From the NCBI GenBank assembly GCA_036389795.1, contig DASVWD010000230.1:1-43844 (forward strand): a stretch of 43,844 bases of DNA, given 5' to 3'. Source of the DNA: Longimicrobium sp. Lineage in GTDB: Bacteria > Gemmatimonadota > Gemmatimonadetes > Longimicrobiales > Longimicrobiaceae. Shown piece by piece: positions 2,516-32,460 of this stretch. Positions within the stretch are counted from its first letter, which is position 1; each line of letters begins with the position of its first letter. Both the position numbers and the translations under genes were made by a program. Below the pieces are notes generated by a model. The model was not told the origin of the DNA, did not search any database, and saw nothing but the letters and a program-made list of their open reading frames with translations.

Positions 2516-3790
2516 ATGCGAATCTTCGGGCAGCACGATGAGAACACGCTACGGCAGCTCCACGACGTGGCGAGCCGCGCCGAGCGCGCCGCGCTGATGG
2601 CGGACGGGCACGTCGGCTTCACGATGCCGATCGGCGGGGTGGCGGCGTACCGGGGCCGGGTGTCGGTGGTGGGCGTGGGCTTCGACATCGCCTGCGGGAA
2701 CGCGGCGATCCGCACGGACCTGTCGGTCGAGGACGTGACGAAGGGGCTCACGCTGGACGAGGTGCGGCGCAACCCGCACCGGCTCACGCAGGACCGGCGG
2801 CTGATCCGGCTGGCCGACGAGATCGCGTCCACGGTGTCGTTCGGGCTGGGGCGGAGGAACCTGGCCGACGACGCGCCGGTGGACGATCCGCTCTTCCAGG
2901 ACCCGGCGTGGTACGCCATCCCCAACACCGGCGGCGACCGCGACACGCTGCGCGACAAGGCGCGCCGCCAGCTCGGCACCGTGGGGAGCGGCAACCACTA
3001 CGTGGACGTCTTCGCCGACGAGGCGGGCGCCGTGTGGGTGGGGGTGCACTTCGGCAGCCGCGGCTTCGGGCACACCGTGGCGTCGGACTTCCTGTCGCTG
3101 TCGCAGGGCGGCGGCTGGGGGCAGCGCGCCCGCGAGAAGGAGGTGCTGCTCGAGCTGGAGCAGCCGATCGGGCACGACTACTGGCACCTGATGGAGCTGG
3201 CCGGGCGCTACGCCTACGCCGGGCGCGAGTGGGTGGCGCGCAAGGTGGTGGAGCTGATGGGCGGTTCGGAGCTGGAGCTGGTGCACAACCACCACAACTT
3301 CGCCTGGAAGGAGACGCACCTCTCGCCCGAGGGCGAGCCGGTGGAGTACGTGGTGGTCCGCAAGGGCGCCACGCCGGCCTTCCCCGGGCAGAAGGGCTTC
3401 GTCGGCGGCTCGATGGGCGACGACGCGGTGATCGTGGAGGGCGCGGCCGCGCTGGAGGGCAGCGAGGTGGCCCAGGTGCAGCGCGAGGCGCTCTTCTCCA
3501 CGGTGCATGGCGCGGGGCGGGTGATGAGCCGCACCGAGGCCGCGGGGAAGCGCACCCGCCGCGGCGAGGTGAAGAAGCGGGGGAAGATCGACCCGCGCAT
3601 GGTGGAGGAGTGGCTGCAGAAGAAGGGAGTGGTGCTGCGCGGCGGCGGCCTGGACGAGGCGCCGCAGGTCTACCGGCGCCTGACGAAGGTGCTGGACGCG
3701 CAGGGCCCCACCATCGAGGTGAAGCACGTCCTCCACCCGCTGGTCGTGGTGATGGCCGGCGCCGGCGAGATCGATCCGTACAAGGATTGA
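2516..3790 (+). CDS. rtcB: RtcB family RNA ligase
   Basis: 424 residues. RtcB joins RNA 2',3'-cyclic phosphate or 3'-phosphate ends to 5'-OH ends using GTP and Mn2+. All signature motifs are visible: FDIACG (Cys60 metal ligand), GSGNHY (His161), HFGSRG (His178), HNHHNF (His260 region), RKGATPAFPG (283-291), and HGAGRVMSR (331-339), whose His331 matches the guanylylated histidine. Motif order and spacing follow the short E. coli-type enzyme (about 408 residues). No archease gene is adjacent. It follows the GC-poor DUF5677 gene by 6 bases but has host-like high GC, so the pair is compositionally mixed. Assignment is very secure; its physiological substrate here is not known. Confidence 0.95.
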   Translation: MRIFGQHDENTLRQLHDVASRAERAALMADGHVGFTMPIGGVAAYRGRVSVVGVGFDIACGNAAIRTDLSVEDVTKGLTLDEVRRNPHRLTQDRRLIRLADEIASTVSFGLGRRNLADDAPVDDPLFQDPAWYAIPNTGGDRDTLRDKARRQLGTVGSGNHYVDVFADEAGAVWVGVHFGSRGFGHTVASDFLSLSQGGGWGQRAREKEVLLELEQPIGHDYWHLMELAGRYAYAGREWVARKVVELMGGSELELVHNHHNFAWKETHLSPEGEPVEYVVVRKGATPAFPGQKGFVGGSMGDDAVIVEGAAALEGSEVAQVQREALFSTVHGAGRVMSRTEAAGKRTRRGEVKKRGKIDPRMVEEWLQKKGVVLRGGGLDEAPQVYRRLTKVLDAQGPTIEVKHVLHPLVVVMAGAGEIDPYKD

Positions 3791-11180: not shown

Positions 11181-11238
11181 AAACCGCAGTGCGAAGTCCT
11201 GAGTGCGAAGTGCGAAGTGCCGACGACGAGAGAGGAAG

Positions 11239-12660
11239 ATGCTGCTGACCATCCGCACCACGCACCGTCCGGCGACGGACCTGGGCTACCTGCTGGGGAA
11301 GAACCCGGCGCGCGCGCAGAGCTTCGAGCTGGCGTTCGGGCACGCGCACGTCTTCTACCCGGAGGCGACGGACGAGGCGTGCACGGCGGCGCTGCTGCTG
11401 GACGTGGATCCCATCGGCCTGGTGCGCGGGCGCGGCTCAGGCGAGGGCGCGATCGACCAGTACGTGAACGACCGGCCGTACGTGGCGTCGTCCTTCCTGT
11501 CGGTGGCGATCTCGCGCGTGCTGAGGAGCGCGCTGGCGGGGACGAGCCGCGAGCGGCCGGAACTGGCCCAGGCGCCGATCCCGCTGGAGGCGAAGATCGC
11601 CGTGCTCCCCTGCCGCGGGGGCGAGGACTTCCTGCGGCGCCTGTTCGAGCCGCTGGGCTACACCGTCCGCGCCGAGCCGCACCCGCTGGACGAGGGCCAG
11701 CCGGAGTGGGGCGGGAGCCGCTACTCCACGGTGACGCTCTCGGGCGTGGCGCGGCTGTGCGACCTGCTGGCGCACGTGTACGTGCTGGTGCCGGTGCTCG
11801 ACGGGCGGAAGCACTACTTCGTGGGCGACGACGAGGTGGCCAAGCTGCTGCGCCACGGCGAGGGGTGGCTGGCCGCGCACCCGGAGCGCGAGGCGATCGC
11901 CCGGCGCTACCTGAAGCACCGGCACTCGCTGGTGCGCGAGGCCATCGCCCGGCTGGTGGAGCAGGCGGAGCCGGACGACGGGGAGGAGGCTCCGGAGGCG
12001 GCGCGCGACGCGGAGGAGGCCGTCGTCGAGCGCACGCTGAGCCTCAACGAGCAGCGGCTGGCGGCGGTGCTGGCGGCGCTCCAGGCGAGCGGCGCCCGGC
12101 GCGTGCTGGACCTGGGGTGCGGCGAGGGCCGCCTGCTGCGCATGCTGCTGGGCGACCCGCGGTTCGCCCAGGTGGTGGGGGTGGACGTGTCGCACCGGGC
12201 GCTGGAGATCGCGGCGGACCGGCTGCGGCTGGACCGGCTGCCGGAGCGGGCGCGCGAGCGCGTGAAGCTGCTGCACGGCTCGCTCATGTACCGCGACCGG
12301 CGGCTGGAGGGCTTCGACGCGGCGGCCGTGGTGGAGGTCGTCGAGCACCTGGACCCGCCGCGGCTGGCGGCGTTCGAGCGCGTGCTGTGGGAGCGGGCGC
12401 GGCCGGGCACGATCGTGCTCACCACGCCCAACGCCGAGTACAACGTGCGCTGGCCCTCGCTCCCGGCGGGGAAGTTCCGCCACCGCGACCACCGCTTCGA
12501 GTGGACGCGCTCCGAGCTCCGGGCGTGGGCCGAGGGCGTGGCGGGCCGCTTCGGCTACGCGGTGCGCTTCCTCCCCGTGGGTCCCGACGACCCGGAGGTG
12601 GGCCCGCCCACGCAGATGGCGGTCTTCACCCGGGGCGACGGGGGAGGGACGGACGGATGA
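11239..12660 (+). CDS. hen1: 3'-terminal RNA ribose 2'-O-methyltransferase Hen1
   Basis: 473 residues. Bacterial Hen1 methylates the 2'-OH of the 3' end of broken RNA before Pnkp reseals it, so the repaired RNA resists the same ribotoxin cut. The N-terminal ~240 residues match the Hen1 N-terminal (Pnkp ligase-activating) domain. The SAM site is VLDLGCGEGRLL (289-300). The metal site shows ExxEH (Glu366, Glu369, His370) with a downstream His418 in RHRDHRF, the arrangement known for bacterial Hen1. Start ATG 11239 follows AGAGGAAG. The stop overlaps the HEAT gene start as ATGA, and pnkp lies 1.8 kb downstream, giving a full repair locus. Confidence 0.95.
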   Translation: MLLTIRTTHRPATDLGYLLGKNPARAQSFELAFGHAHVFYPEATDEACTAALLLDVDPIGLVRGRGSGEGAIDQYVNDRPYVASSFLSVAISRVLRSALAGTSRERPELAQAPIPLEAKIAVLPCRGGEDFLRRLFEPLGYTVRAEPHPLDEGQPEWGGSRYSTVTLSGVARLCDLLAHVYVLVPVLDGRKHYFVGDDEVAKLLRHGEGWLAAHPEREAIARRYLKHRHSLVREAIARLVEQAEPDDGEEAPEAARDAEEAVVERTLSLNEQRLAAVLAALQASGARRVLDLGCGEGRLLRMLLGDPRFAQVVGVDVSHRALEIAADRLRLDRLPERARERVKLLHGSLMYRDRRLEGFDAAAVVEVVEHLDPPRLAAFERVLWERARPGTIVLTTPNAEYNVRWPSLPAGKFRHRDHRFEWTRSELRAWAEGVAGRFGYAVRFLPVGPDDPEVGPPTQMAVFTRGDGGGTDG

Positions 12661-14455: not shown

Positions 14456-17065
14456 ATGACCGACCCCATCGTTCAGCCGATCCGGCCCGCGCCGCCCGCC
14501 CGCGCCCCCGCCGGGCCGCGCACCCTCACCATCCCCGACCTGTCGCTGGTGGTGCTGGTGGGCGTGTCCGGCTGCGGGAAGTCGACCTTCGCGCGCAGGC
14601 ACTTCCTGCCGACCGAGGTGCTCTCGTCCGACTGGTTCCGCGCGCTGGTCTCCGACGACGAGACCGACCAGTCGGCCACCACCGACGCCTTCGACGCGCT
14701 GCACTTCGTCGCCCGCCGGCGGCTGAAGCGCGGGCGGCTCACGGTGATCGACGCCACCAACGTGCAGTCCGCCGCCCGCAAGCCGCTGGTGGCGCTGGCG
14801 AAGGAGCACCACGTCCACGCCGTCGCCATCGTGCTCGACATCTCCGAGCGCGTCTGCTCCGAGCGCAACCGCTCGCGCGCCGACCGCCAGGTGCCGGGCC
14901 ACGTCATCCCCCAGCAGCACGCGCAGCTGCGCCGCTCCCTGCGCGACCTGCGGCGCGAGGGCTTCCGCCACGTCTTCGTCCTCGAATCTCCCGACGAGGT
15001 CGACCAGGCGGTCGTCGTCCGCGAGCCGCTGTGGACCGACCGCCGCGGCGACCCCGGCCCCTTCGACGTCATCGGCGACGTGCACGGGTGCGCGGACGAG
15101 CTGGAGGAGCTGCTGGACCGCCTCGGCTACGTCCCGGGCGAGGACGGCGTGCGGCGCCACCCGGAAGGCCGCAAGGCCGTTTTCCTGGGCGACCTGGTGG
15201 ACCGCGGCCCGCGCGTGGCCGACGTGCTGAAGATCGCGATGCCGATGGTCGAGGCGGGAGCGGCGCTCGCCGTCCCCGGCAACCACGACGTCAAGCTGGT
15301 GAAGGCGCTGCGCGGCCGGAACGTGCAGGTCCGGCACGGGCTGCAGACCTCGCTCGACGACCTGGCGCGCGAGACGCCCGAGTTCCGCGAGCGGGTGGCC
15401 GCCTTCCTGGACGGGCTGGTGAGCCACTACGTGCTGGACGGCGGCCGGCTCGTCGTCGCCCACGCGGGGATGAAGGAGGAGCTGCAGGGGCGCGCCTCGG
15501 GCCGCGTGCGCGAGTTCGCCCTCTACGGCGACACCACGGGCGAGACCGACGAGCTCGGGCTGCCGGTCCGCAACGACTGGGCGGCCGAGTACCGGGGCCA
15601 GGCGGCGGTGGTCTACGGCCACACCGTGGTTCCCCGCGCCGAGTGGCTGAACCGGACGATCAACATCGACACCGGCTGCGTCTTCGGCGGGAGCCTGACG
15701 GCGCTGCGCTGGCCCGAGCGCGAGCTGGTGTCCGTCCCCGCGCGGCAGGTCTACGCGGAGCCGGCGCGGCCCTTCCTCCCCGAGCCCGGCGCGGAGGCGG
15801 TGGCGAGCGCCCAGCACGCCCACGACGAGCTGCTGGACCTGGAGGACGTGGCGGGGAAGCGCATCGTCGAGACGCGGCTGCTGCGCACGGTCACCATCCG
15901 CGAAGAGAACGCGGCGGCCGCGCTGGAGGTGATGAGCCGCTTCGCCGCCGACCCCCGGTGGCTCGTCTACCTCCCGCCGACCATGTCGCCCTCGGAGACC
16001 AGCCGGCGCGAGGGGCTGCTGGAGCACCCGGCCGAGGCGCTCGACCATTACCGCCGCGAGGGCGTGGCGAAGGTGGTGTGCGAGGAGAAGCACATGGGCT
16101 CGCGCGCCGTGGTGGTGGCCTGCCGCGACGAGGCGGCGGCCCGGCGGCGCTTCGGGGTCGACGGCGAGGCGGGGATCGTCTACACCTGCACCGGCCGCCG
16201 CTTCTTCGACGACCCGGCGCTGGAGGCCGGGGCGCTGGCGGTGCTGCGCGGCGCGCTGGCGGCGTCCGGCTTCTGGGAGACGATGGAGACGGACTGGGTG
16301 GTGCTGGACTGCGAGCTGATGCCCTGGTCGGCCAAGGCGCAGGAGCTGATCCGCGGCCAGTACGCCGCCGTGGGCGCCGCCGCCCGCGGCGCGCTCTCCG
16401 AGGCCACGGCGGCGCTCCGCGCGGCCGCCGAGTCGGGCGTCGACGTGGGCCCCCTGCTGGCGCGCTACACCGACCGCGAGCGGCTGGTGGAGCGGTACGC
16501 GGCCGCCTACCGCCGCTACTGCTGGCCGGTGGCCTCGCTCGACGACCTGCGCCTGGCGCCGTTCCACGTGCTGGCCACCGAGGGAGCCGTCCACGTGGAC
16601 CGCGACCACCTGTGGCACCTGGAGACGATCGCGAAGGTGCGCGGCGCGGCCGGGCGGCTGCTGTATCCGACCGAGTACCGCGTGGTGGACCTGGACGACC
16701 CGGCGGGCGAGGAGGAGGCGACCGCCTGGTGGGAGGAGATGACGGAGCGGGGCGGGGAGGGGATGGTGGTGAAGCCGCTCGGCTTCGTGGCGCACGGCCG
16801 CCGCGGCCTGGCGCAGCCGGCGGTGAAGTGCCGCGGCCGCGAGTACCTGCGCATCATCTACGGCCCGGAGTACACGCTGCCGGAGAACCTGGAGCGCCTG
16901 CGCAGGCGCGGGCTGGGCGCCAAGCGCTCGCTGGCCCTGCGCGAGTTCGCGCTCGGCGTCGAGGGCCTGGAGCGCTTCGCCCGCGGCGAGCCCCTGCGCC
17001 GCGTGCACGAGTGCGTCTTCGGCGTCCTGGCGCTGGAGTCGGAGCCGGTCGATCCGCGGCTGTGA
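14456..17065 (+). CDS. pnkp: Polynucleotide kinase-phosphatase-ligase Pnkp
   Basis: 869 residues in the order kinase - phosphatase - ligase/adenylyltransferase. Kinase P-loop: GVSGCGKS (36-43). Phosphatase of the calcineurin type: GDVHGC (207-212), GDLVDRG (245-251), GNHD (275-278), plus distal VAHAG and YGHT. Ligase motif I is KHMGSR with Lys545 as the predicted AMP-accepting lysine. This enzyme heals 2',3'-cyclic phosphate and 5'-OH RNA ends and seals them together with Hen1. Length agrees with the Clostridium thermocellum enzyme (870). A terminator cassette separates it from the HEAT gene, so independent expression is possible. A clear ribosome site is lacking. Confidence 0.96.
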   Translation: MTDPIVQPIRPAPPARAPAGPRTLTIPDLSLVVLVGVSGCGKSTFARRHFLPTEVLSSDWFRALVSDDETDQSATTDAFDALHFVARRRLKRGRLTVIDATNVQSAARKPLVALAKEHHVHAVAIVLDISERVCSERNRSRADRQVPGHVIPQQHAQLRRSLRDLRREGFRHVFVLESPDEVDQAVVVREPLWTDRRGDPGPFDVIGDVHGCADELEELLDRLGYVPGEDGVRRHPEGRKAVFLGDLVDRGPRVADVLKIAMPMVEAGAALAVPGNHDVKLVKALRGRNVQVRHGLQTSLDDLARETPEFRERVAAFLDGLVSHYVLDGGRLVVAHAGMKEELQGRASGRVREFALYGDTTGETDELGLPVRNDWAAEYRGQAAVVYGHTVVPRAEWLNRTINIDTGCVFGGSLTALRWPERELVSVPARQVYAEPARPFLPEPGAEAVASAQHAHDELLDLEDVAGKRIVETRLLRTVTIREENAAAALEVMSRFAADPRWLVYLPPTMSPSETSRREGLLEHPAEALDHYRREGVAKVVCEEKHMGSRAVVVACRDEAAARRRFGVDGEAGIVYTCTGRRFFDDPALEAGALAVLRGALAASGFWETMETDWVVLDCELMPWSAKAQELIRGQYAAVGAAARGALSEATAALRAAAESGVDVGPLLARYTDRERLVERYAAAYRRYCWPVASLDDLRLAPFHVLATEGAVHVDRDHLWHLETIAKVRGAAGRLLYPTEYRVVDLDDPAGEEEATAWWEEMTERGGEGMVVKPLGFVAHGRRGLAQPAVKCRGREYLRIIYGPEYTLPENLERLRRRGLGAKRSLALREFALGVEGLERFARGEPLRRVHECVFGVLALESEPVDPRL

Positions 17066-28662: not shown

Positions 28663-29598
28663 GTGCCGCCCGACCGCCCGCAGCGCGCGCTCCTGGTCTT
28701 CCTCGACGGCGTCGGCGTCGGCGAGGGCGACCCGGAGCGCAACCCGTTCGCCCGCGCGCACCTGCCGAACCTGCGCCGGCTCCTGGGCGGCCGCCTCCCC
28801 GTCGCCGACGACCTGGACGCGGAGGGCCGCATCGCCACCGACACCGCCGTCCTCGCCGTGGCGGACGCCACGCTGGGAGTGCCCGGCGTGCCGCAGAGCG
28901 GGACGGGGCAGACCGCGCTCCTCACCGGGCGCAACGCCGCGGAAGCCTACGGCCGCCACTTCGGCCCCTGGGTCCCCACCGCGTTGCGCGACCTGCTGGC
29001 CGCCGAGAACCTGCTGAGCCGGGCCGTGGCCGCCGGCGCGCGGGCCGCCTTCGCCAACGCCTACCCGCTCGCGGGCGTCGCCGCCGACCCGCGCATCTTC
29101 CGCCGCCCCGCCGCGCCCCCGCTCGCCGCCCGCGCCGCCGGCGTGCTCACCCGCGACCTCCCCGAGCTCGCCGAAGGACGCGCCGTGGCCTCGTCGATCA
29201 CCAACGAGCACTGGCGCGCCCGTGTCGGCGACGCGCTCCCCGACGTCGCCCCCGCCGAGGCCGGCCGCCGCCTCGCCCGCATCGCCGCCGACGCCGAGGT
29301 GACGCTCTTCGCCCACTACGACACCGACTACGTAGGCCACCGCGGCGGCATGCCCGGCGCCGTGGCCGCCCTGGAGAAGGTCGACGCCTTCCTCGGCGGC
29401 CTGGTCGAGGCGCTCCCCGAGGACGCGCTCCTGGTCGTCTCCAGCGACCATGGCAACCTGGAAGACGTCACCGGCGAGCACACGCGCAACCCCGTCCCCG
29501 TGCTCGCCCTCGGCCCGGGACGCGACGCCGTGGTCGAGCGCGCGTCGCGGATCGACCACGTCGCCCTTGGAATCTTGACACTTCTGGACTTTTCGTGA
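28663..29598 (+). CDS. Metalloenzyme of the phosphoglycerate mutase/alkaline phosphatase superfamily
   Basis: 311 residues from GTG 28663. FLDGVGVGEG near the N-terminus carries the first metal-binding Asp. SGTGQTALLTGRNA contains the nucleophilic Ser/Thr region. Distal metal ligands lie in HYDTDYVGHRGG and SSDHGNLEDVTGEHT. This is the PF01676 (metalloenzyme) pattern, shorter than true iPGM because the inserted transferase domain is replaced by a small one. Substrate unknown; phosphoester hydrolysis or transfer is expected in the cytoplasm. The last codons (ILTLLDFS) lie in the AATCTTGACACTTCTGG promoter segment that starts the downstream duplication, so the native C-terminus may have been altered. 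Confidence 0.87.
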   Translation: MPPDRPQRALLVFLDGVGVGEGDPERNPFARAHLPNLRRLLGGRLPVADDLDAEGRIATDTAVLAVADATLGVPGVPQSGTGQTALLTGRNAAEAYGRHFGPWVPTALRDLLAAENLLSRAVAAGARAAFANAYPLAGVAADPRIFRRPAAPPLAARAAGVLTRDLPELAEGRAVASSITNEHWRARVGDALPDVAPAEAGRRLARIAADAEVTLFAHYDTDYVGHRGGMPGAVAALEKVDAFLGGLVEALPEDALLVVSSDHGNLEDVTGEHTRNPVPVLALGPGRDAVVERASRIDHVALGILTLLDFS

Positions 29599-29603
29599 AT
29601 CTT
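29575..29603 (+). promoter_or_regulatory. Promoter of module 1
   Basis: TTGACA (29575-29580), 17-bp spacer, AATCTT (29598-29603), overlapping the end of the metalloenzyme gene; 48 bases before the small gene. Conserved in unit 2. Confidence 0.6.
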
Positions 29604-29650
29604 ACGTCTCATCCAAGGCGGTTCCTCCTTTCACGGTCGCTGACGATGAG

Positions 29651-30025
29651 ATGCCTCGAGACGGGAGTGGTGAGGAAGAACCGGCCTGCGCCTCGGCGCT
29701 GGGCCCGGTCTGGAGGCGGACCTACGAGCCGAATCCGAAGCACGGGCCGGAGGAACGGGGGCGCATCGCCCGGCAGCCGCGAGACGGGCAGGAGGCGCTT
29801 GACTTCTCCGTGGCTGTGAAGGCTTCTTTTCCGGTGCGGGTTGGCCTGGATCAGGAAAAGGGAACGTTCGTCGTGTTGCGTTGGCACGGTGCCGGCGAGT
29901 TTCGAGGCCGTCCGAACTCCGAAAAGTTCCATGGGTATGCGGTGCCTTGGAAGACTCTGTCGCAGGAGTTGCGGAACGCGCTGATCAGGGCGGGTATTGC
30001 TGACCGTCGCGGGAGGATACTGTGA
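29651..30025 (+). CDS. Unknown small protein, module 1 (paralogue of 30845-31225)
   Basis: 124 residues. It shares with its copy in unit 2 the blocks MPRD/EGxGEEEPA, LGPVWRR-YEPNP, GQEALD-SV-VK, the near-terminal FHGY-VPW, and the end ADRRGRIL. The N-terminal 25 residues are acidic and low complexity; the C-terminal ~100 look like a compact alpha/beta domain. The conservation pattern (protein-level similarity with many base changes) supports real coding. The stop overlaps the next start as GTGA. Its size, single-domain form and coupling to a HEAT-repeat gene resemble toxin/immunity or toxin/antitoxin pairs, but I do not recognise a toxin family, so the function is left open. Confidence 0.75.
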   Translation: MPRDGSGEEEPACASALGPVWRRTYEPNPKHGPEERGRIARQPRDGQEALDFSVAVKASFPVRVGLDQEKGTFVVLRWHGAGEFRGRPNSEKFHGYAVPWKTLSQELRNALIRAGIADRRGRIL

Positions 30026-30585
30026 AGACGAAGTCGCTGGTGAACCAGGGTTTTGGACCGATTTCGCGGGAGCGGGCGGAGGCGGCGTTCGCCACGGGAA
30101 AGCCCGAGGAGATCCTGCGTGCGTTGCTGCGGCTCGCGATGAACGGTCCCGACTTCGAATACGCGGAGCGTCTCGCCCTGGAGTACGCCCGGCACGATGA
30201 CGTATGGGTGCGGCGGAATGCGGCTACGTCGTTGGGGCACATCGCGCGCGTACACGGCAACTTGGACCTGGCCCGGGTACTTCCTGCGCTACTGGAGCAG
30301 ATGATGGATTCCGAAGTGAGAGATTGGGCCGACGCGGCGCTGGACGACATCCAGATCTACCTGAAAGTCGATCCGCGGAAGCCCAAGCGCATCGGCGGGA
30401 AGCGCTTCACGTACAATCCAGAGCGTCGGACGCTCCGGGTGTCGGAGAAGGGTGGTAGGCCGTACGAGTATTCCGAAGTCACCCCGCAGGAGTTCATTCG
30501 CCTGTTCCTGCGCGACCCCGCGCGCGACGAGCCGGCTGAGGACGAGATCGCCACGCACGAGCGCCGCCTGCTGCGCTCGGCCTGA
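30022..30585 (+). CDS. HEAT-repeat protein with KTSC-like tail, module 1
   Basis: 187 residues from GTG 30022, overlapping the previous stop (GTGA). Residues 20-115 are helical pairs of the HEAT type (YAERLALEYARHDDVWVRRN, AATSLGHIARVHGNLDLARV, LLEQMMDSEVRDWADAALDD). Residues 120-165 form a small beta unit (KRFTYNPERRTLRVSEKGGR, PYEYSEVTPQEFIRLFLRD) faintly similar to KTSC domains. The copy in unit 2 has identical length and an almost identical last third. HEAT proteins often serve as immunity or binding partners, consistent with a two-gene module. Confidence 0.82.
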   Translation: MKTKSLVNQGFGPISRERAEAAFATGKPEEILRALLRLAMNGPDFEYAERLALEYARHDDVWVRRNAATSLGHIARVHGNLDLARVLPALLEQMMDSEVRDWADAALDDIQIYLKVDPRKPKRIGGKRFTYNPERRTLRVSEKGGRPYEYSEVTPQEFIRLFLRDPARDEPAEDEIATHERRLLRSA

Positions 30586-30606
30586 CCAGGAAGCAGACGG
30601 AAGCAG

Positions 30607-30792
30607 TTGACCGCCCCGACCCCCATCCGCGCCGTACTCTACGACTTCGACGGGACGCTGGCGGACGGCACCGAGCTGATCATGCGGTGCTACCGCCACA
30701 CCATGCGCACGCACCTGGGCGAGTGCCCGCCCGACGAGGAGTGCTGCGTGGCTTCGGGACCTGTAATCTTGACACTTCTGGACCTTTCGTGA
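30607..30792 (+). pseudogene. Truncated 5' copy of the HAD phosphatase gene
   Basis: The first ~47 codons match the intact gene at 31807 almost exactly (DFDGTLAD motif included). After CCCGACGAGGAGTG a single-base deletion shifts the frame, and about 15 bases later the sequence jumps to AATCTTGACACTTC, the start of unit 2. The product would be a 61-residue fragment lacking all later HAD motifs, so it is a duplication remnant. Confidence 0.9.
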
Positions 30793-30797
30793 ATCTT
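30769..30797 (+). promoter_or_regulatory. Promoter of module 2
   Basis: TTGACA (30769-30774), 17-bp spacer, AATCTT (30792-30797). Same as in unit 1 with one base changed in the spacer. Confidence 0.6.
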
Positions 30798-30844
30798 ACG
30801 TCTCATCCAAAGCGGTTCCTGCCTTCCCGGTCGCCGACGATGAG

Positions 30845-31225
30845 ATGCCGCGAGAGGACGGTGGTGAGGAAGAACCGGCCCGTGCCCCCGCGCGGCCGCT
30901 GGGCCCGGTCTGGAGGCGCGTCTACGAGCCGAATCCAGGCAAGCACGCCGAGGAGGAGCACGGGATCGTCAGCCGCGAGCCGCGCGAAGGACAGGAGGCA
31001 CTTGACTACTCGGTACGGGTGAAGCCTACTTCCTTCGCCCGGATCAGCGTCGACTGGGAAGAGCGTGTCTTCGTGGTGTTGCGGCGTCACCTCTGGGCAG
31101 TCGACCAATGGCCGAACGCGGAGTGTTTCCACGGGTATGTGGTTCCCTGGGAAGCGTTGCAGCAGGACATGAGAAATCGACTGATCGCAGCGGGCATGGC
31201 GGATCGCCGCGGGAGGATCCTGTGA
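30845..31225 (+). CDS. Unknown small protein, module 2 (paralogue of 29651-30025)
   Basis: 126 residues. It has the same N-terminal acidic/Pro stretch and the core VWRRVYEPNPGKHAEEEHG, GQEALDYSVRVK, FVVLRRHLWA, CFHGYVVPWEALQQDMRNRL and ADRRGRIL. Compared with its module-1 copy the middle differs heavily (KASFPVRVGLDQEKGT versus KPTSFARISVDWEERV) while ends are kept, so the pair has diverged under protein-level constraint. The stop overlaps the HEAT gene start as GTGA. Role unknown; see module 1. Confidence 0.75.
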   Translation: MPREDGGEEEPARAPARPLGPVWRRVYEPNPGKHAEEEHGIVSREPREGQEALDYSVRVKPTSFARISVDWEERVFVVLRRHLWAVDQWPNAECFHGYVVPWEALQQDMRNRLIAAGMADRRGRIL

Positions 31226-31785
31226 GCGCGGAGACGCTGGTCAACCAGGGATTCGGACCGATCTCGCGGGAGAGGGCGGAGCGTGCTTTCGCTTCGGGTG
31301 ATCCTCAGGAAATCCTGCGTGCGCTGCTGCGGCTTTCGCTGCACGGCCCCGATTTCGAGGAGGCGGAGAGCCTCGCGCTCGACTACGCGCGCCACCCGAA
31401 CCTGTGGGTCCGCTGCAACGCCGCGACTGCGCTGGGCCACATCGCGCGCGTCCACGGCAAGCTGGACCTGGCGCGCGTGCTCCCGGTGCTGCTCGAGCAG
31501 ATGGCGGACCCCGAGGTGCGGCCCTATGCCGAAGACGCGCTGGACGACATCGACAACTACCTTAAGGTCGATCCGCGCAAGCCCAGGCGCATCGGCGGGA
31601 AGCGGTTCACCTACGACCCCGAACGGCGCGCGCTCAGGGTTTCTGGGAAGGGCGGCAAGGCGTACGAGTATTCCGAAGTCACCCCGCAGGAGTTCATTCG
31701 CCTGTTCCTGCGCGACCCCGCGCGCGACGAGCCGGCCGAGGACGAGATCGCCACGCACGAGCGCCGCCTGCTGCGCTCGGCCTGA
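31222..31785 (+). CDS. HEAT-repeat protein with KTSC-like tail, module 2
   Basis: 187 residues from GTG 31222. The HEAT part (EAESLALDYARHPNLWVRCN, AATALGHIARVHGKLDLARV, LLEQMADPEVRPYAEDALDD) has many substitutions relative to module 1. From YEYSEVTPQEFIRLFLRD to HERRLLRSA it is identical to module 1, and the DNA there is nearly identical too, which points to gene conversion or to replacement of only the 5' part. It is followed after 21 bases by the intact HAD gene in the same orientation. Confidence 0.82.
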   Translation: MSAETLVNQGFGPISRERAERAFASGDPQEILRALLRLSLHGPDFEEAESLALDYARHPNLWVRCNAATALGHIARVHGKLDLARVLPVLLEQMADPEVRPYAEDALDDIDNYLKVDPRKPRRIGGKRFTYDPERRALRVSGKGGKAYEYSEVTPQEFIRLFLRDPARDEPAEDEIATHERRLLRSA

Positions 31786-31806
31786 ACAGCAAGCAGACGG
31801 AAGCAG

Positions 31807-32460
31807 TTGACCGCCCTGACCCCCATCCGCGCCGTACTCTACGACTTCGACGGGACGCTGGCCGACAGCACCGAGCTGATCATGCGGTGCTACCGCCACA
31901 CCATGCGCACGCACCTGGGCGAGTGCCCGCCCGACGAGGAGTGGCTGCGCGGCTTCGGCACGCCGCTCGACGTGCAGCTGGCCCGCTTCGCCCGCACGCC
32001 CGGCGAGGCGTCCGCCATGCTGGACACCTACCGCGACTACCAGCTCCAGCACCACGACGACCTGCTGCGCCCCTTCCCCGGCGCCGCCGAGACGGTGGCC
32101 GAGCTGGCCCGCCGCGGCGTCGCGCTCGCCATCGTCACCAGCAAGTACCGCCGCGCGACGATCCGGGGGATGGACCTCTGCGGCATCACGGAGCACTTCG
32201 GCCTGATCGTCACCCCCGAGGACGTGGCGAACCCCAAGCCGCACCCCGACCCGGTGCTCTTCGCGCTCGCCAGGCTGGGCGTCGCCCCCGCGGAGGCGCT
32301 CTTCGTGGGCGACTCGCCGCACGACCTGGCCGCCGGCCGCGCCGCCGGCACCCGCACCGCCGCCGCGCTCTGGGGCCCCTTTCCCCGCGAGGCGCTGGAG
32401 CGCGAGCGCCCCGACGCCCTGCTCACCCGCCAGGAGGACGTGCTGGAGCTGGTGGGCTGA
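31807..32460 (+). CDS. HAD-family phosphatase (PpaX/Gph-like)
   Basis: 217 residues, most likely from TTG 31807. All four HAD motifs are present: DFDGTLAD (nucleophile and acid Asp), VTSK, the Lys in NPKPHPDP, and GDSPHDL. The helical cap between motifs I and II fits subclass I phosphoglycolate phosphatase / pyrophosphatase PpaX-like enzymes. Its likely job is small-molecule phosphate hydrolysis in the cytoplasm. Its 5' end was copied upstream in the tandem duplication. It is followed by a 15-bp perfect hairpin. Confidence 0.92.
   Translation: MTALTPIRAVLYDFDGTLADSTELIMRCYRHTMRTHLGECPPDEEWLRGFGTPLDVQLARFARTPGEASAMLDTYRDYQLQHHDDLLRPFPGAAETVAELARRGVALAIVTSKYRRATIRGMDLCGITEHFGLIVTPEDVANPKPHPDPVLFALARLGVAPAEALFVGDSPHDLAAGRAAGTRTAAALWGPFPREALERERPDALLTRQEDVLELVG

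Follow-up and report, generated by a model that had tools for sequence, protein, structure and literature searches.

Two diverged CdiA-CT/CdiI-like gene pairs in tandem between a metalloenzyme gene and a HAD phosphatase gene of Longimicrobium

Two tandem units lie between two housekeeping-type genes

Within contig DASVWD010000230.1 of Longimicrobium sp. (assembly GCA_036389795.1), of which positions 1 to 43,844 were analysed (the window, 43,844 nucleotides), a metalloenzyme gene and an intact HAD-family phosphatase gene enclose two units of ~1.2 kb placed head to tail. Both copies show the same order: the 3' end of the metalloenzyme gene, a small gene, a gene for a HEAT-repeat protein and the 5' end of the HAD gene. 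The small protein and the HEAT protein match the two partners of the CdiA-CT/CdiI complex of Cupriavidus taiwanensis (PDB 5T87), the C-terminal (CT) toxin domain of a contact-dependent growth inhibition (CDI) protein and its immunity protein, and are called toxin and immunity below. We consider it probable that the units are stand-alone pairs of this type, two alleles that had already diverged when they were stacked in tandem. The units were compared on this contig, and each species is represented by one genome. The features of the locus are as follows.

28663..29598, + strand: metalloenzyme-superfamily gene, phosphopentomutase / cofactor-independent phosphoglycerate mutase-like, upstream neighbour (Pfam PF01676, E=2.8e-22)
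29572..30762, + strand: unit 1, metalloenzyme 3' end, toxin 1, immunity 1 and HAD 5' fragment (alignment to unit 2)
29651..30025, + strand: toxin 1, 124-aa stand-alone CdiA-CT-like domain (phmmer against PDB)
30022..30585, + strand: immunity 1, 187 aa, CdiI-like HEAT protein with a C-terminal KTSC-like domain (5t87_A match, Foldseek)
30461..30743, + strand: low-divergence tail of unit 1 (6 substitutions in 283 bp against 31661-31943)
30607..30762, + strand: truncated 5' fragment of the HAD gene (alignment to the intact gene)
30766..31963, + strand: unit 2, metalloenzyme 3' end, toxin 2, immunity 2 and HAD 5' part, running into the intact HAD gene (alignment)
30766..30792, + strand: duplicated metalloenzyme 3' end (alignment)
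30845..31225, + strand: toxin 2, 126 aa (phmmer against PDB, alignment to toxin 1)
31222..31785, + strand: immunity 2, HEAT protein with KTSC-like domain (alignment to immunity 1, CdiI match)
31807..32460, + strand: intact HAD-family phosphatase gene, downstream neighbour (PF13419, E=4e-45)

Orthologues of the metalloenzyme in the genus align through the C-terminus, and the 5' edge of unit 1 falls in the last ~9 codons of this gene (...VALGILTLLDFS*), whose aligned counterpart in module-free relatives reads ...VAPAILGALG.... Unit 2 repeats the gene end as ...ILTLLDLS*. A sequence-only reading of the window had placed the same promoter before both small genes; the shared stretch turned out to be the 3' end of the metalloenzyme gene, and a sigma-70 scan of it, which covers one promoter type only, returned no site. 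The GTGA coupling described in that reading is present in both units, the toxin stop overlapping the GTG start of the immunity gene at 30022-30025 and 31222-31225. By eye, a GGGAGGA lies just 5' of the immunity GTG, inside the last toxin codons, and no good Shine-Dalgarno sequence is seen at the toxin starts.

The duplicated HAD 5' end is likewise present, and its unit-1 copy is truncated and frameshifted as had been described: it comprises the first ~50 codons of the HAD gene, is identical to the intact gene at 134/137 bp (98%) up to 30743, and ends in a 1-bp deletion followed by fusion to the second metalloenzyme 3' end. Measured against relatives, the Ser-to-Gly change and the deletion belong to the fragment and a GCG-to-GCC change to the intact HAD gene. 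The HAD-metalloenzyme junction at 30743-30766 has its own sequence, with a deletion and mismatches that neither parent shows. A duplicated segment bounded by the end of the upstream gene and the start of the downstream gene is as expected from out-of-register joining of two copies of the locus.

The paired genes match both chains of one toxin-immunity complex

Queried alone with phmmer, each small protein has the CdiA toxin chain 5t87_E as its sole significant match in the PDB (toxin 1, E=8.2e-11 over residues 41-122; toxin 2, E=1e-10 over residues 43-124). A profile built from the pair matched the 5T87 toxin with E=2.6e-13, and 24 positions are common to toxin 1, toxin 2 and 5T87 CdiA. The two toxins are 62% identical, and their open reading frames (ORFs) of 124-126 aa stand alone, without a delivery part. 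Pfam, NCBIfam, PHROGs and PADLOC gave no usable match for the toxin, two scans of a genome-contig collection yielded no relative, a search of plasmids with the window toxin found none, and a search of phages gave none either. Querying the plasmids with the 5T87 toxin returned three distant records, one of them a toxin fragment beside a Nonomuraea Rhs gene. In this record (Nonomuraea gerenzanensis, locus L041, 4977-5198) the fragment lies ~1.4 kb 3' of an Rhs gene whose present C-terminus is a different one, possibly as a displaced cassette. Two weak extra matches from a phylum search with a three-row toxin profile (E 0.002 and 0.008) were rejected, as both fall in unrelated sequence that lacks a HEAT gene.

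The HEAT proteins match the CdiI immunity chain 5t87_A (E=2.4e-8, about residues 16-114). Furthermore, the predicted HEAT structure (mean predicted local distance difference test score, pLDDT, 75) retrieved chains C, B and A of 5t87 as the top three Foldseek matches among 350,542 chains, with TM-scores by target of 0.77-0.79. The match to CdiI is one 98-residue stretch, whereas the matches to designed repeat proteins cover pieces of ~20 residues. Immunity 2 is 81% identical to immunity 1 overall, and the last 40 residues are identical. Beyond the repeats lies a KTSC-like part (about residues 122-161), which scores 20-21 bits against PF13619 where the cut-off is 25; Foldseek matched this region to structures 7x8c and 4rgi with E about 0.1. 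The KTSC part is absent from the 116-residue 5T87 CdiI and from the HEAT proteins of genus relatives. The PADLOC model HEAT_CxxC_PDDEXK gave a partial, weak match (E=0.005 over 57 residues), short of full length.

Because neighbouring genes match both chains of one crystallised complex, there is strong evidence that each unit carries a toxin-immunity pair, and the toxin/immunity guess of the sequence-only reading is borne out by these matches. On this reading the small gene would encode only the cytotoxic C-terminal domain, which by homology would act in the cytosol, and the HEAT-repeat protein would bind and block it. Since most characterised CdiA-CTs are nucleases (PMC9086364), our guess by analogy is that the toxin may be an RNase.

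A diverged front is joined to a near-identical tail

In the alignment of unit 1 to unit 2, the best single breakpoint is at 30461 (partner 31661). Before it, 140/549 ungapped positions differ (25.5%); from it onwards the difference falls to 6/283 (2.1%; at 30537, 30586, 30590, 30617, 30663 and 30667), to which the 1-bp deletion near 30743 is added. The corresponding Fisher p of 3.4e-21 is optimistic, the breakpoint having been picked on the same data, but the contrast is nonetheless far beyond chance. The two tandem units with a diverged front and near-identical last ~290 bp are thus as the sequence-only reading described them, and they are not uniformly similar. Third codon positions of the HEAT genes give the same picture, with 64/146 differing in codons 1-146 compared to 1/41 in codons 147-187 (p=6e-8).

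Synonymous (dS) and nonsynonymous (dN) divergence between the units, calculated by NG86, was 0.96 and 0.15 for HEAT codons 1-146, 1.47 and 0.33 for the toxin domain, 0.34 and 0.22 for the toxin N-terminus, and 0.03 and 0.01 for the HEAT tail (codons 147-187). Silent sites in the first part (half) of the KTSC-like domain have diverged to the same degree as those of the HEAT repeats (dS 1.03), so the edge at 30461 lies inside this domain and not at a domain boundary. On the left the change is gradual: identity is 92% (73/79) in the 79 bp that precede the small genes, and next comes the toxin N-terminus with its lower dS. GC content is 65-66% in both toxins, 63.9% in HEAT 1, 68.5% in HEAT 2 and 72-77% in the flanking genes.

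The ratio dN/dS, a check that the sequence-only reading had proposed, is 0.16-0.32 in the front parts of both genes. At a dS of about 1, values this low show that both pairs are under purifying selection and were kept as proteins; the toxin proteins, too, mattered during most of their divergence. A uniform recent or neutral tandem duplication of one unit is excluded by the contrast of front and tail and by the dS values. The HAD fragment adds an order of events: it has no coding use yet is almost identical to the intact gene, and therefore the joining or the tail is young compared with the fronts; as HEAT codons 1-146 are so much more diverged than this fragment, the fronts diverged before the junction or the tail formed.

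The interval occurs in several states across the genus

The module genes were searched for in 41 related genomes and in 395 genomes of the phylum, and the loci around the orthologous HAD gene were read in relatives (our labels G001 to G010). The HAD orthologue adjoins the metalloenzyme gene in most relatives of the genus. The HEAT gene was found in this genus and in one genome of the same family (G010) among the 41, and in the genus only among the 395; the toxin gene was found outside this genome in neither set. Thus, the search for modules at the HAD locus of the genus, as the sequence-only reading had suggested, revealed empty, immunity-only, decayed and stacked states. In G003, G004, G005, G006 and G009 the metalloenzyme gene adjoins the HAD gene with no module. 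G001 has a 122-aa HEAT gene between the two and no toxin, and in G010 the end of a HEAT gene precedes the HAD gene at a contig end. In G002 and G008 a HEAT gene without toxin follows the metalloenzyme gene and the HAD gene lies elsewhere; the toxin-less HEAT protein of G008 matches CdiI with E=3.6e-9. In both of these genomes the metalloenzyme-HEAT pair (L036, L037) and the HAD gene (L025, L026) are on different contigs, the neighbourhood being broken exactly here, and short tandem repeats stand directly 3' of the toxin-less HEAT gene, of the GTGCGGAA type in G002 (L036, 5500-5600) and GTGCCCA in G008 (L037, 5645-5690).

G007 carries 300 bp of decayed sequence with a HEAT segment (DVWVRRNAATSLG). 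Just before this remnant lies a 33-nt match to the toxin 3' end together with its Shine-Dalgarno sequence. The simplest reading of these states is an old pair at this site that lost first the toxin and then the immunity gene, with two alleles stacked in the present genome.

Origin of the tandem arrangement

In order to account for the mosaic, we favour the stacking of two alleles. The pair would have occupied the metalloenzyme-HAD interval from an early point in the history of the genus, with relatives losing the toxin but keeping the immunity-type gene, or losing both. The resident copy would then have been joined, out of register, by a second one that carried the flanking gene ends, so that HAD codon ~50 of one copy met the metalloenzyme 3' end of the other. 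Being backbone shared by the two copies, the flanks and the 3' end of the immunity gene would look recent, whereas the toxin and its partner would already have diverged. This route fits best, as a single illegitimate joining event accounts for the two flanks as well as the tail and the rival routes need more events. The most likely role would be that of two immunities against toxins delivered by relatives, the toxin halves being silent or rarely used cassettes; such immunity would be the main benefit, and two alleles would give wider cover. Toxicity, cognate inhibition, different specificities of the pairs, their role and the stacking route are what we infer from these data.

Several points weigh against this interpretation. 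The AlphaFold model of the toxin is poor (pLDDT 48), so the toxin homology rests on sequence; toxin activity here is predicted from that homology, and no published activity for the 5T87 toxin was found in the literature searched. The strong GC bias at third codon positions (GC3) affects the dS comparisons. In G007, the toxin-end match tops all 44,834 other 50-nt windows in a position-fixed test designed after the match was seen, and the intergenic DNA aligned to the whole toxin gene was no better than chance (188/4652 controls as good); the ancestral toxin therefore rests on the 3'-end match and its correct position. Finally, the stacking is a reconstruction from one genome per species.

Replacement of the front following a recent tandem duplication, in which homologous recombination gave one copy the toxin-immunity front of a diverged allele of a different strain or species, is possible though on the unlikely side. 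An equally sharp 3' edge at 30461 would be expected in this case, as would the intermediate 5' part (92% upstream, dS 0.34 in the toxin N-terminus); the lower GC of the unit 1 front (HEAT 63.9% versus 68.5% in unit 2) hints at a newer arrival, and for CDI and Rhs loci a duplication with subsequent recombination has been put forward (PMC3150448, PMC4927057). It needs two events, however, where stacking needs one, and no donor for the front was found among the 395 phylum genomes. We regard as more doubtful an old tandem duplication whose fronts diverged in place while gene conversion later made the 3' part (HEAT 3' end and HAD 5' end) uniform again. An edge as sharp as the one at 30461 suits a conversion tract, and the non-coding HAD fragment would have to be refreshed to stay 98% identical, but the tract must then run into a useless fragment almost to the junction, and the raised identity of the left edge (92%) needs a second explanation. 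The sequence-only reading had proposed front replacement or tail conversion; its dismissal of a simple uniform duplication stands, and at one genome per species both of its routes account for the same data as stacking does.

It is very improbable that the HEAT protein performs a routine cellular function at this locus, with the small gene an unrelated passenger and the CdiI match a generic HEAT similarity. The HEAT gene does persist without toxin in G001, G002 and G008, and its repeats also match unrelated designed proteins; however, two neighbouring genes match the two partners of one crystallised complex, CdiI is matched over one stretch of 98 residues and ranks first by fold, and toxin-less immunity genes are the expected remnants of such loci. 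An assembly artefact joining contigs of two strains is scarcely credible despite 285 contigs, 3.75% estimated contamination and a shared tail long enough to confuse an assembler, because an assembler does not invent, without reads, a junction whose sequence is found in neither parent.

Returning to the stacked alleles, a further and rather unlikely extension is that the metalloenzyme-HAD interval may be a genus-wide exchange site for a polymorphic pair, independent of CDI and Rhs loci, at which alleles older than the species would be kept by balancing selection; stacking would then widen immunity, and the KTSC part would broaden or alter inhibition. With the favoured interpretation, an unexplained mosaic becomes the readable history of a CDI-type pair outside a delivery locus, and the gain and loss of alleles by orphan cassettes becomes testable at a single conserved site. 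It also puts names to two families of genes that previously had no above-cut-off assignment in Pfam, NCBIfam or PADLOC, HEAT repeats apart.

Genome context

The genome carries a type VI secretion system (T6SS) sheath gene, several Rhs-repeat genes and 19 matches to the core domain of extracellular contractile injection systems (eCIS_core, DUF4157), many of them clustered, on contigs C249, C115, C21, C114, C263 and others of this genome (G000). None of the Rhs C-termini seen in the genome is this toxin. A long Rhs-type ORF lies near a ClpV-like ATPase (L053, G000:C21:20000-32000; L062), with T6SS TssC on the same contig, and this is likely a T6SS locus. A TPS (two-partner secretion) search of the genome gave no match; the controls of this search were also silent, so that genome-wide absence is not proven.

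Within the window, RNA repair genes encode an RtcB ligase, a Hen1 methyltransferase (Hen1_L, E=7e-113) and Pnkp (PNKP_ligase, E=1.6e-182), at 2516-3790, 11203-12660 and 14456-17065. The toxin cassettes lie 12 kb downstream of these genes, with no evidence of a functional link. Pnkp-Hen1-type systems repair RNA cut by ribotoxins (PMC4411300).

Comparison with known systems

A classical type II toxin-antitoxin system, whose antitoxin has a DNA-binding domain and is as a rule encoded first, was rejected: the toxin gene comes first here, and its partner is a HEAT and KTSC-like protein with no match to a DNA-binding family. The closest likeness is to the C. taiwanensis CdiA-CT/CdiI pair, whose toxin domain class has been named cd20695 (PMC9111745). 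Both genes are homologous to it by sequence and the immunity gene also by predicted fold, and the toxin gene precedes the immunity gene in both. The Longimicrobium pairs differ in that the toxin is a stand-alone protein of 124-126 aa and not the end of a CdiA of >3000 residues, the immunity protein is extended at its C-terminus by a KTSC-like part, and two alleles stand in tandem.

The orphan cdiA-CT/cdiI and rhs-CT modules (Poole 2011, PMC3150448; PMC9086364) are similarly composed of a detached toxin tip with its own immunity gene, in tandem, and such a CT fragment followed by its immunity gene is what each unit contains. The modules of Poole 2011 have a strong Shine-Dalgarno sequence for the immunity gene and none obvious for the toxin, the asymmetry also seen here; in orphan cdiA-CT/cdiI pairs, immunity is made and the toxin usually not (PMC3150448). 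Unlike those modules, the present ones are not 3' of a cdi or rhs gene but between two housekeeping-type genes at a genus-conserved site: no cdi or rhs gene was found among the scanned window genes, and the Rhs genes of the genome are on other contigs. Neither toxin has a VENN motif.

Stand-alone toxins of the same type are known in Rickettsia, where the toxins of the CRCT/CRCA-3 modules were modelled on the same 5T87 CdiA-CT (PMC9111745). These, too, are small modules that show varied decay across a genus and have recombined between loci; their antidotes were not modellable on 5T87 CdiI, whereas the immunity partner described here matches it. A HEAT-like helical immunity protein bound to its toxin is also known from the T6SS immunity protein Tdi5a (PMC13392607). 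There are precedents for orphan toxin-immunity cassettes, for tandem arrays and for the displacement of alleles (PMC3150448, PMC4927057, PMC3482391); what is new is the site between two housekeeping-type genes away from delivery genes, the fusion of the immunity protein to a KTSC-like domain, and the series of states within one genus.

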